NCBI RefSeq assembly: GCF_000739695.1
Contig: NZ_BBIO01000003.1
Location: forward strand, 186,001-250,000
DNA length: 64,000 bases
Source of the DNA: Tepidicaulis marinus
GTDB taxonomy: Bacteria > Pseudomonadota > Alphaproteobacteria > Parvibaculales > Parvibaculaceae
Direction: 5' to 3'
Shown here in pieces: positions 49,198 through 53,697 of the stretch; positions within the stretch are counted from its first letter, which is position 1; every line of letters starts with the position of its first letter. Made by a program: the position numbers and the translations under genes. Below the pieces are notes generated by a model. That model was not told the origin of the DNA. It saw only the letters and a list, made by a program, of their open reading frames with translations, and made no database searches.

Positions 49198-49728
49198 ATG
49201 CAAGATCTCTGGGTATTTGGATATGGCTCGCTGATGTGGCGGCCGGGTTTCGATTTCGTGGAACGGCGCGATGCGCGCCTTTACGGCTATCACCGGGAGT
49301 TCTGTGTTTTCTCCCATGTCCATCGTGGCACGCCGGAAAAGCCGGGCCTTGTCTTCGGCCTCGACAGGGGCGGGGCGTGCCGGGGCGCGGCCTTCCGCGT
49401 GGCCGGTGAAAAGGCCGCCGAGGTCTATGCTTATCTGCAGGAGCGCGAACAGGTCACGAGTGTCTATCTCGATGTGATGCGCCCGGTGCGGCTTTTGGAG
49501 ACGGGCGAGAAAGTGACCGCGCTTTGCTTCATCGTCGACCGCGCGCATCTGCAATATGCAGGCAAGCTCTCTTTCGACGATCAGGTCCGTCTCATTGCGG
49601 AAGGGAAGGGCCAGTCCGGGGCCAATCCCGATTATCTTTTCGGCACGCTCACGCATCTGCGCGAGATCGGCATCAAGGACGCCCGTCTTGAAGCTTTATG
49701 GCACGCCGTATTGCAGCGTCTGTCTTGA
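49198..49728 (+). CDS. ChaC-like gamma-glutamylcyclotransferase
   Basis: A 176-residue protein of the ChaC family, which cleaves glutathione to 5-oxoproline and Cys-Gly. The substrate-binding motif WVFGYGSLMWRPGF opens the protein, FCVFSHVHRGTPEKPGLVFGL follows, and YLQEREQVTSVY carries the probable catalytic Glu. Length is normal. Its 3' end overlaps the converging ycaQ gene by 56 bases. Confidence 0.88.
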   Translation: MQDLWVFGYGSLMWRPGFDFVERRDARLYGYHREFCVFSHVHRGTPEKPGLVFGLDRGGACRGAAFRVAGEKAAEVYAYLQEREQVTSVYLDVMRPVRLLETGEKVTALCFIVDRAHLQYAGKLSFDDQVRLIAEGKGQSGANPDYLFGTLTHLREIGIKDARLEALWHAVLQRLS

Positions 49729-50881
49729 CCGTCTCTGCGCCTGAAAATTTGGCAAGCCGCGCCAGCGCCTTGCGGAAGGCTTCTTCGCGGGCGCTTGTCC
49801 ATTTGACGCCGGGCTCGAGCCAGAGGCCCTTCACTTCCAGAACGCCTTCCTTGCGGTGGACCTTCATATCCGCGCGGCCGGTAAAACGCGCGCCTTCTAA
49901 AATGGGCAGGACATAATAGCCATATTGGCGTTTCTTTTCGGGGACGAAAATCTCGATCCGGTAATCGAAGCCGAAAATGCGCTCGGCTCTTTTCCGGTCC
50001 CGAAGCACGGGGTCGAACGGGCTGAGAAAGCGCAGGCGCGTGGGCGGGGCGGGGGCCTCCAGGCGCTCTTCGATATCTTTGAAAGCCAGGGCGGCGCGTT
50101 TCGTCCCATCCGCACCGGTGATTTCCACCTCGCACAGCGCGCGCGCATTCTCCGCCAGCCATTTTTTGACTTCCGCCGGCGGCAGGCTGTCCCAAAAGGC
50201 GGCGATTTCTCCAGGCGTTGCCGTGCCCAGCCGTTTCAGGGCCTCGCGGCATTTCCAGTCGCGGATTGCCGCAGCGCTCGGGGTGTGCGTGCGGTGACCC
50301 TCCGGGATAACGCGTTCGGCCAAATCATAGACTTTCTGAAAGCCCTCGCGCCGGGAGATGGCAAGATCGCCCGTGCGCCAGAGAAATTCCAGCGCGGTTT
50401 TGGACGGGCCCCAGCCCCACCAGCCGCCCGCGCCTTTGTCTTCAAAGTCGCGGGCCATGAGCGGGCCTTCTTTCTCGATCCGCTGTTTGACGTTTTTGAT
50501 GATCTTGGGGCCGTGCGGGCCGAGCCGCGTTTTCCAGGCCCCGTCTTTCAGTTTCTGCCGGGCGGCTTTGAAGCGTTCCTGCCAGTAAGGATAAAACTCG
50601 ATGGGGATGAGGCAGGCATCATGGGTCCAATGTTCGAAAAGCGCCCTGTCGCTTTCATGCAGCCCGTGCAAATCCTCGCGTTTATATTTTTCCGCGCGCG
50701 AGAAAAGCATCATGTGATGGGCGCGCTCGACGGCATTGACGGAATCGAGCTGCAAATAGCCGAGCTTGCCGATCAGGGCACGCAGCTCTTCTTTTGGAAG
50801 CGGCGCGGCGGGTTTGCGCGTCAGGCCCTGCAGGTCGAGAAGCAGATGGCGGGCCTGACGGTTGGTGATTTGAAGCGGCAT
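49673..50881 (-). CDS. ycaQ: YcaQ-like DNA glycosylase (HTH_42 family)
   Basis: A 402-residue winged-helix protein of the HTH_42 (DUF1006) family. E. coli YcaQ unhooks interstrand DNA crosslinks; AlkZ of Streptomyces is a relative. The catalytic region LGYLQLDSVNAVERAHHMMLFSRAEKY contains the QxD motif (Gln-Leu-Asp) of the YcaQ branch rather than the QxQ of AlkZ. The winged-helix pair and the beta-rich C-terminal domain with LSPFDPVLRDRKRAERIFGFDY are as in the family. Its ATG overlaps the VOC gene stop by one base, so it is coupled to VOC and nrdJ. Confidence 0.85.
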   Translation of the reverse strand: MPLQITNRQARHLLLDLQGLTRKPAAPLPKEELRALIGKLGYLQLDSVNAVERAHHMMLFSRAEKYKREDLHGLHESDRALFEHWTHDACLIPIEFYPYWQERFKAARQKLKDGAWKTRLGPHGPKIIKNVKQRIEKEGPLMARDFEDKGAGGWWGWGPSKTALEFLWRTGDLAISRREGFQKVYDLAERVIPEGHRTHTPSAAAIRDWKCREALKRLGTATPGEIAAFWDSLPPAEVKKWLAENARALCEVEITGADGTKRAALAFKDIEERLEAPAPPTRLRFLSPFDPVLRDRKRAERIFGFDYRIEIFVPEKKRQYGYYVLPILEGARFTGRADMKVHRKEGVLEVKGLWLEPGVKWTSAREEAFRKALARLAKFSGAETVKTDAAIRRAIKLQDGRP

Positions 50882-51297
50882 CAGGCAGCGTAAGGTTCGT
50901 AGACGAATTCAAGCTTCAGCCCGTCGGGATCGGCGAAAAAGACGGCGTAATAATCCGGGCCGTATTCGGGATAGGCGGCGGGGGCATCCAGAATTTCCGC
51001 GCCGATTTCTTGCAGCAGCGCATGGAGCCCGTCGACGTCTTCCCGGCTTTGCGCATGCCAGGCGACGTGATGAAGGCCGGGCGCATAGCGGTTGTGTTTT
51101 TGCCCCGCGCTTTCCGCTTTAGCGCGCAAAATGCCGATGGAGATATAAGCGCCTGCGGGCCGCGCCGCCCAATCGACGCTGTCGGCGTCTTCATCGACGC
51201 GGGCATAGCCCATAAAACCCAGAACGGCATCGTAAAAGGGGGCGGAGATGGCGGGGTCTTTAACGGTCAGGTCGAGATGATGAATGGCGCCGCGCAT
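50881..51297 (-). CDS. VOC (glyoxalase/bleomycin resistance) family protein
   Basis: A 138-residue VOC-superfamily protein with the usual paired beta-alpha-beta-beta-beta modules: IHHLDLTVKDPAISAPFYDAVLGFMGY at the N terminus, HHVAWHAQSREDVDGLHALL, and DPDGLKLEFVYEP at the C terminus giving likely metal ligands His, His and Glu. VOC proteins include glyoxalases, dioxygenases and drug-binding resistance proteins; which applies is not shown. It lies between nrdJ (21 bases upstream) and ycaQ in an apparent operon. Confidence 0.82.
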   Translation of the reverse strand: MRGAIHHLDLTVKDPAISAPFYDAVLGFMGYARVDEDADSVDWAARPAGAYISIGILRAKAESAGQKHNRYAPGLHHVAWHAQSREDVDGLHALLQEIGAEILDAPAAYPEYGPDYYAVFFADPDGLKLEFVYEPYAA

Positions 51298-51318
51298 TAT
51301 CGTTTTTGTCCTTTGCCC

Positions 51319-53610
51319 TTAGCTGCATTTGGAATAGCCGCAGGAGGTGCAGGTATCGCAGCCTTCCTGACGCACCAGCCCGCGCTCACCGCAGCGCGGG
51401 CAGCCTTTCATCCCCGTTACCACCGCCCCTTCAAGCAATTTGCCCTCGCTGAGCGGTTTGCCGTCTTTTTTGGTGATAAAGCCGATATCGATCATGTGCC
51501 GTTCGATCGTCTCGCCGATGGCGGCCAGAAGCGAGGGTACATAGCGCCCGTTCATCCAGGAGCCGCCGCGCGGATCGAACACGGCTTTCAATTCTTCGAC
51601 GACGAAAGTCACATCGCCGCCGCGCCGGAAGACGGCGGAGATCATCCGCGTCAACGCCACGGTCCAGGCATAGTGCTCCATGTTCTTCGAGTTGATGAAA
51701 ATCTCGAAGGGCCGGCGGCGCTTGTCCTGAATGATGTCGTTGAGCGTGATGTAAATGGCATGATCGCTTTCGGGCCATTGCAGCTTATAGGTATAGCCGG
51801 GCAGTACCGCATCGCGCTCGAGCGGTTTGGACATATAGACGACGCCGTCTTTGACCTCGAAAACGGGCGCGCCGCTTTCTTCCTCCGCCGGGCTTTCGGA
51901 AGGGCTAAGCGAGAGCACGGAGCCGCGCACCTCGCTCGGGCGGTAAGTGGTGCAGCCTTTCAGGCCTGCTTTATAGGCGCTGGTGTAAATATCCTTGAAC
52001 GCCTCGAAACTGATATCGGCGGGGCAATTGATCGTTTTGGAGATCGAGCTGTCGATATAAGGCTGCACGGCGGCCTGGACGGCAATATGGGCGTCCGGGG
52101 TCAGGTCCTGCGCGGTGGTAAAGGCCTCGGGCAGCGGCGCATCCGCGCCATGCAGGGCGCGGTATTCGGCAAGGGCGTAGTCCACCACCTCTTCCTCGCG
52201 CGTGCTGCCATCGGCAAGGCGCACCTTGCGCCTGTAGCTCGGCGCGAAAATCGGCTCGATGCCGCTTGAGACATTACCCGCGAAAAGCGAGATCGTGCCG
52301 GTGGGCGCGATGGAGGTCAAAAGCGCGTTGCGGATGCCGTGATGCGCAATCGCATCCTGAAGATGCTGGGGCAATGCCTTGATGGTTTCCCCTGCCAGAT
52401 AGGGCTCCTTCTCGAAAAGCGGGAAGGGGCCCTTTTCCTTGGCAAGCTCCACGGAGGCGGCATAAGCGGCGTGTTGCAGCCGGCTCATCCAGCGGTGAAT
52501 GAGCGTCAGGCTTTCCGGCGCCCCGTAGCGCGCGCCGCACATCAGGAGCGCATCGGCAAGGCCCGTCACGCCAAGGCCGATGCGGCGCTTGGCTTTTGCC
52601 TCATGCTCCTGCTCGGGCAGGGGAAAGCGCGAAACGTCGATCACATTGTCCATCATGCGCACGGCGGTATGGACGAGATCGGCAAGCTCGTCTTCATCGA
52701 TATGGGCTTCGGCGCCGAAGGGGTGTTTGACGAGAGCGGCCAGGTTGAGCGAGCCGAGCAGGCAGGCGCCATATGGCGGCAAGGGCTGCTCGCCGCAGGG
52801 GTTCGTCGCCTGAATGCTTTCGCAATAATAGAGGTTGTTGCGGGCATTGATGCGGTCGATGAAGATCACGCCGGGCTCGGCATAGGCGTAGGTCGAGGCG
52901 GTGATGTGGTTCCAGAGCGCGCGGGCGCGCAAGGTTTTGTAGACCTTGCCTTCGAAAGTGAGCTGCCAGTCGCCGTCTTCTTCCACCGCCTGCATGAAGG
53001 CGTCGGTGACAAGGACGGAAAGATTGAAATTCGTCAGCCGTCCCGCTTCGCGTTTCGCGTCGATAAAGTCTTCGATGTCCGGATGATCGCAGCGCATCGT
53101 CGCCATCATCGCGCCGCGCCGCGCGCCCGCCGACATGATGGTGCGGCACATCGCATCCCACACATCCATGAAGCTCAAGGGACCGGAGGCATCCGCCCCC
53201 ACGCCTTTGACCGGCGCGCCCTTGGGGCGCAGCACCGAGAAGTCGTAACCGATGCCGCCGCCCTGCTGCATGGTCAGCGCGGCTTCCTTCAAATGATCGA
53301 AGATGCCCGCCATCGTGTCCGGGATGGTGCCCATGACGAAGCAGTTGAAGAGCGTGACGTCGCGCCCGGTCCCCGCGCCCGCCAGAATGCGCCCGGCGGG
53401 CAGGAACTTGTAATCCTCCATCGCCTGATAGAAACGCGCCGCCCAGCCCACCCGGTCATGGGGTTCGGCCAGCGCCAGGGCGGAGGCGACCCGCGCCCAG
53501 CTGTCAGGCACAGAGGCATCGCCCCTGCCGTCTTGGGGATTTTCCTCCGGGGTGCGGAACCGGTATTTCAGGTTCCAGATTTCCTCTGCAATGGCCGGGC
53601 GTTCACCCAT
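51319..53610 (-). CDS. nrdJ: Adenosylcobalamin-dependent (class II) ribonucleotide reductase
   Basis: A 763-residue class II ribonucleotide reductase, making deoxynucleotides with vitamin B12 instead of oxygen or iron. Visible features: LFNCFVMGTIPD (first redox Cys), GGIGYDFSVLRP, NPCGEQPLPPYGACLLGSLNLA (active-site Cys), TGTISLFAGNVSSGIEPIF, and a C-terminal Cys-rich tail CPRCGERGLVRQEGCDTCTSCGYSKC that transfers electrons or binds zinc. It is shorter than the ~1,200-residue NrdJ of many rhizobia. An SOS-type GTTC-N7-GTTC site lies about 73-87 bases upstream; no cobalamin riboswitch is seen. It heads an operon with VOC and ycaQ. Confidence 0.95.
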   Translation of the reverse strand: MGERPAIAEEIWNLKYRFRTPEENPQDGRGDASVPDSWARVASALALAEPHDRVGWAARFYQAMEDYKFLPAGRILAGAGTGRDVTLFNCFVMGTIPDTMAGIFDHLKEAALTMQQGGGIGYDFSVLRPKGAPVKGVGADASGPLSFMDVWDAMCRTIMSAGARRGAMMATMRCDHPDIEDFIDAKREAGRLTNFNLSVLVTDAFMQAVEEDGDWQLTFEGKVYKTLRARALWNHITASTYAYAEPGVIFIDRINARNNLYYCESIQATNPCGEQPLPPYGACLLGSLNLAALVKHPFGAEAHIDEDELADLVHTAVRMMDNVIDVSRFPLPEQEHEAKAKRRIGLGVTGLADALLMCGARYGAPESLTLIHRWMSRLQHAAYAASVELAKEKGPFPLFEKEPYLAGETIKALPQHLQDAIAHHGIRNALLTSIAPTGTISLFAGNVSSGIEPIFAPSYRRKVRLADGSTREEEVVDYALAEYRALHGADAPLPEAFTTAQDLTPDAHIAVQAAVQPYIDSSISKTINCPADISFEAFKDIYTSAYKAGLKGCTTYRPSEVRGSVLSLSPSESPAEEESGAPVFEVKDGVVYMSKPLERDAVLPGYTYKLQWPESDHAIYITLNDIIQDKRRRPFEIFINSKNMEHYAWTVALTRMISAVFRRGGDVTFVVEELKAVFDPRGGSWMNGRYVPSLLAAIGETIERHMIDIGFITKKDGKPLSEGKLLEGAVVTGMKGCPRCGERGLVRQEGCDTCTSCGYSKCS

Positions 53611-53682
53611 TTCATTCTCCTTGCGCGGGCTCTCCCGCAGGGCCCTATAAGCTAGGGAGCCGGACCCTTATCGTCAATGAAT

Positions 53683-53697
53683 GTTCTTTTAATGTTC
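53683..53697. promoter_or_regulatory. LexA-type SOS box upstream of nrdJ
   Basis: GTTC-TTTTAAT-GTTC matches exactly the alphaproteobacterial LexA direct repeat GTTC-N7-GTTC. In minus-strand sense it lies just upstream of TTGACG and a possible TAGCTT, which could be the -35 and -10 of nrdJ. Motif and position are both suitable for LexA control. Confidence 0.65.

Follow-up and report, generated by a model that had tools for sequence, protein, structure and literature searches.

The nrdJ-VOC-ycaQ locus

Three genes, nrdJ, a gene of the VOC superfamily and ycaQ (alkX), follow one another on the minus strand of the window (the whole 64,000-nt stretch of Tepidicaulis marinus DNA that was analysed), and a predicted LexA box with a probable promoter lies upstream of nrdJ (Table 1). 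The first two genes are separated by 21 bp and the last two overlap by one base, in agreement with the gene order and spacing given in an earlier note on this DNA. Simple scans of the nrdJ-to-ycaQ interval revealed neither promoter- nor terminator-like sites on the minus strand, and together with the short same-strand gaps this is the layout of a single operon. On the plus strand, chaC (gamma-glutamylcyclotransferase family) is convergent with ycaQ and overlaps it by 56 bp (49673-49728); a convergent chaC next to nrdJ or ycaQ is kept throughout the family of T. marinus and in many other alphaproteobacteria.

Table 1. Features of the nrdJ-VOC-ycaQ locus (positions in the window)
Feature	Position	Strand	Description
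nrdJ	51319-53610	minus	short class II (adenosylcobalamin-dependent, predicted) ribonucleotide reductase, 763 aa
VOC (glyoxalase superfamily)	50881-51297	minus	138 aa, optional operon member
ycaQ/alkX	49673-50881	minus	YQL-type DNA glycosylase (by sequence), 402 aa
predicted LexA box	53683-53697	minus	exact GTTC-N7-GTTC / GAAC-N7-GAAC; plus strand GTTCTTTTAATGTTC, along the operon GAACATTAAAAGAAC
probable -35	53672-53677	minus	TTGACG, 5 nt downstream of the box
probable -10	53649-53654	minus	TAGCTT, 17 bp from the -35

NrdJ scored 596.6 bits against TIGR02504 (NrdJ_Z; cut-off 399.95), which bears out the identity proposed earlier, and its alignment to the NrdJ of T. maritima (1xje) preserves the NPCGE radical-site motif and the disulphide cysteines; both family score and radical site are those of a class II reductase. 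The genome also encodes a long class II NrdJ (PRK07562) and the class Ia NrdAB, and the enzyme behind the LexA-type box is therefore a third reductase; no exact box was found at the loci of the other two. The T. marinus protein thus resembles the T. maritima type in family and intact radical site, but differs in being the second class II enzyme of its genome and in carrying a LexA-type box. In several other alphaproteobacteria (L253, G154:C69 and others) the open nrdJ frames reach some 1150-1280 aa and contain a large insertion at around residue 270, possibly an intein.

YcaQ is the only protein of the genome matching PF06224 (AlkZ-like/HTH_42; E=7.2e-73, residues 38-379), and its LQLDSVN segment aligns to IQIDSVN of the AlkX structure 9zd6. 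This QxD motif, present in 57 of 58 YcaQ homologues, is the hallmark of the YQL subfamily, as opposed to the QxQ/HxQ of AlkZ (PMC9040887), and with PF06224 covering the length of the protein it places YcaQ among the YQL enzymes and supports its earlier assignment as a putative crosslink glycosylase. The domain, the motif and the single copy are shared with known YcaQ/AlkX glycosylases; in contrast to ycaQ/alkX of E. coli and A. baumannii, the gene here comes after that of a reductase, with a LexA-type box ahead of the pair.

The VOC protein matches PF00903 (E=1.9e-13), and its nearest solved relatives are 3ct8 and 4z04, uncharacterised putative glyoxalases of the same fold family. H68, H77 and E130 are invariant in 30 homologues and H7 is kept in the complete ones, H7, H77 and E130 forming a metal-ligand-like set. 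Bleomycin-resistance binding proteins are VOC dimers not known to have catalytic metal ligands, and the VOC protein differs from this class in keeping metal-ligand-like histidines and a glutamate. Its ligand set appears to fit a metalloenzyme rather than a protein that binds bleomycin-type compounds; on this criterion a bleomycin-type role is not supported, and the idea that the protein may bind the damaging agent found no support. The neighbours of VOC genes examined elsewhere gave no functional lead.

The LexA-type box and its conservation

The box lies 72 bp upstream of the nrdJ ATG (about 75 bases had been noted before), is exact, and stands directly before the probable -35 element, i.e., at a promoter, as expected of a member of the alphaproteobacterial LexA regulon. 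A strict sigma-70 scan called no promoter before nrdJ because the -10 element is degenerate. An Rfam search of the 64-kb window yielded no cobalamin riboswitch and no other match, and a riboswitch before nrdJ was rejected. The box pattern is not enriched, either in the window (2 found, 1.24 expected) or in the genome (63 copies, where the reversed control has 113), so its count alone proves nothing and was rejected as evidence; as a candidate LexA site, the nrdJ box becomes significant through comparison with relatives.

Among 29 genomes of the family, 11 have an exact GAAC-N7-GAAC before nrdJ (0-1 with permuted half-sites or other spacings), and in the GTDB alphaproteobacterial sample 12 of 76 nrdJ upstream regions carry it, all 12 in one orientation (permuted half-sites 0-2, other spacings 0-1; the sample includes a few family members, none of them among the 12). 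The box is thus kept in relatives beyond chance. Within the family the exact box occurs in genera g1, g2, g3 and g4, the half-sites being fixed and the spacers differing between genera. In 22 of the 25 exact-box nrdJ promoters a TTG starts within nine bases of the box (about 15% would be expected in random sequence), and most of these extend to TTGnnn-17/18-TA, usually at a distance of 5-7 nt, a pattern that recurs across genera and families. To judge from these promoter sequences, the box is placed as a repressor site directly adjoining the -35 element would be.

In most Parvibaculum the same place is occupied by a one-mismatch box with a first half-site G[TCG]AC (G[TCG]AC-N7-GAAC); two genomes show more than one mismatch and one locus (L152) is exact. 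A lower affinity of the one-mismatch box is a reasonable guess, and its loss is possible. The closest named relatives of NrdJ are from Parvibaculum MAGs (about 73-74%), and locus L021 (Parvibaculum sp.) gives match identities equal to those of family genome G017, which places the T. marinus genome in the family of Parvibaculum; genus g5 is probably Parvibaculum itself. Outside the family, the nrdJ of ycaQ-linked genomes is preceded by the exact box (the f123 and f5 genomes, G161 and G043) or a one-mismatch box (f116), and in G356 by none. The Rhodobacteraceae-type nrdJ of the GTDB sample are mostly without a box.

The same motif occurs elsewhere in the T. marinus genome, with exact boxes before lexA, uvrA and imuA as well as comM/yifB, zapE and mraZ, mostly with AT-rich spacers. 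The motif also precedes lexA in nearly all relatives for which upstream sequence is available; in the family this lexA box is nearly constant (GAACYAAACTAGAAC) and points the same way, with respect to its gene, as the box of nrdJ. The uvrA boxes are kept in many Parvibaculum and in g2; none was detected within the stretch scanned at the uvrA loci of g3 and g4. Given the boxes before lexA, uvrA and imuA and the family lexA box, the LexA of the family is expected to read GAAC-N7-GAAC. In Caulobacter crescentus SOS control acts through the direct repeat GTTCN7GTTC (PMC9578287, PMC12700426), the box carried by lexA, uvrA and imuA of T. marinus; nrdJ and ycaQ are not among the Caulobacter LexA targets named in the literature searched, which did not extend to the primary regulon paper.

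Gene order across alphaproteobacteria

Most of the family keeps the order plsC-nrdJ-(insert)-VOC-ycaQ, with chaC convergent. The VOC gene is missing from the operon in 6 of the 7 g3 genomes, in both g4 genomes and wherever nrdJ and ycaQ are linked outside the family; in g3 and g4 ycaQ directly follows nrdJ, and in the VOC-less genomes of g3, f116 and f123 the gap between the two is about 14-28 bp. Of the unit proposed before, the linkage of nrdJ and ycaQ therefore stands and VOC as a constant part does not. Of 385 genomes sampled across the class, ycaQ was found in 100, this type of nrdJ in 151 and both in 75; by coordinates the two genes are adjacent in 10 of these 75, belonging to families f1, f5, f116 and f123. 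The linkage thus extends through the family and to three others, and conservation of box and gene order, on which the earlier proposal could have failed, did not speak against it. In the YcaQ tree most linked sequences fall into one supported group and f123 is placed firmly elsewhere, so the linkage was gained or lost more than once. At one locus (L256, G384:C10) ycaQ directly follows plsC in the usual place of nrdJ, which is absent there.

Predicted SOS control and competing explanations

We regard nrdJ-(VOC)-ycaQ as a LexA-repressed DNA-damage operon with a probability of roughly 0.7; LexA binding, induction and co-transcription are predicted from sequence comparison. LexA bound to GAAC-N7-GAAC just upstream of the -35 element would block the single promoter, and upon DNA damage activated RecA (RecA*) would cause self-cleavage of LexA and derepression, after which nrdJ, VOC (where present) and ycaQ would be made from one transcript. 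YcaQ/AlkX would excise N7-alkylpurines and unhook interstrand crosslinks (its presumed substrates), and NrdJ, which needs neither oxygen nor a di-iron centre and is extra to NrdAB and the long NrdJ, would supply dNTPs for the subsequent repair synthesis. The VOC protein may be an accessory metalloenzyme that perhaps detoxifies a reactive small molecule, its putative substrate. We favour only slightly the further step of seeing the operon as a dedicated SOS module, with an oxygen-independent spare reductase and an AlkX crosslink glycosylase switched on together by LexA, so that crosslink repair has a dNTP source of its own.

It could also be that LexA controls only nrdJ, and that ycaQ and VOC came in as passengers between nrdJ and the convergent chaC, expressed mainly by read-through or from promoters of their own and without a joint function. 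Such an origin would fit the GTDB loci, in which plsC-nrdJ-chaC is the wider context and ycaQ/VOC an insertion, and the many Parvibaculum genomes in which unrelated genes (encoding a diacylglycerol-kinase-like protein, a membrane protein and a secreted protein) have entered the same slot, between nrdJ and VOC. The box is likewise found before nrdJ where ycaQ is not adjacent (the 12 of 76 GTDB loci; G276), and standalone ycaQ genes are not clearly LexA-controlled: a box precedes 3 of 56, which does not exceed the best permuted control, and they were rejected as independent proof. Against passengers stand the narrow nrdJ-ycaQ gap, which is maintained in several families, the persistence of the linkage despite gain and loss of VOC (on the YcaQ tree the linkage itself calls for at least two gains or losses), the lack of an internal minus-strand promoter-like site in the interval scanned, and the position of all three standalone boxes close to the ycaQ starts; on balance we consider it unlikely that ycaQ and VOC are mere passengers. 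That the GAAC repeat arose by chance or is the site of another regulator, the operon being constitutive or regulated by oxygen or B12, is very improbable, since the low window and genome counts and the degenerate box of most Parvibaculum are set against the spacing and permutation controls, the constant orientation and promoter position, the match between the nrdJ and lexA boxes within each genome and the absence of Rfam matches in the window.

If the LexA-repressed operon is accepted, its regulation would differ from that of E. coli ycaQ. In E. coli, ycaQ shares an operon with msbA and lpxK (PMC7367128, PMC13303869) and is constitutive, mechlorethamine inducing lexA and uvrA but not ycaQ (PMC7367128); SOS control of an AlkX enzyme would therefore be a new arrangement. 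The alkX gene of A. baumannii is induced by mechlorethamine, and species-specific regulation of AlkX has been proposed (EMBO Rep 2026, PMC13303869). In the literature searched, which did not extend to the primary Caulobacter and comparative LexA papers, we found no link between LexA and nrdJ in alphaproteobacteria, no ycaQ in an SOS regulon and no nrdJ-ycaQ operon. The cellular pathway of YcaQ/AlkX has been called unknown, and gene neighbourhoods beyond Streptomyces have been asked for (mBio 2022, PMC9040887). For one clade the operon offers a testable answer, in which crosslink unhooking is tied to SOS and deoxynucleotide supply; if the reading as a dedicated SOS module is true, glycosylase-based crosslink repair in alphaproteobacteria would be a pathway regulated by SOS and provided with its own dNTPs. 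The operon also hints at a reason for the presence of several reductases in some bacteria, one serving as a damage-inducible spare.

Regulation in the T. marinus strain itself is uncertain because its lexA (L101, G000:C43:46189-46881, outside the window), which has its own exact box, contains an in-frame TGA. The codon sits in the catalytic domain, between the regions of the catalytic Ser and Lys, and is Cys in a relative of the same genus (G039) and in six other family members checked; it is either an assembly error, with no effect on the proposed operon, or a natural truncation of the SOS repressor, in which case the operon would perhaps be always on.

Further LexA-like boxes were observed in the course of the analysis. 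In T. marinus one (GTTCTATTTATGTTC; L003, G000:C23:754-768) is found 191 bp upstream of mraZ, the first gene of the division and cell wall cluster, and others (L016, L020, L012) precede zapE, a comM/yifB-type Mg-chelatase-like gene and a TIGR04283-family glycosyltransferase gene. In the lexA promoters of the family (L173-L194 and others) the first box is followed, about 25 bp downstream, by another with one mismatch (GTTTNTNNTTTGTTC) that faces the opposite way, which suggests that the two are paired autoregulatory sites.
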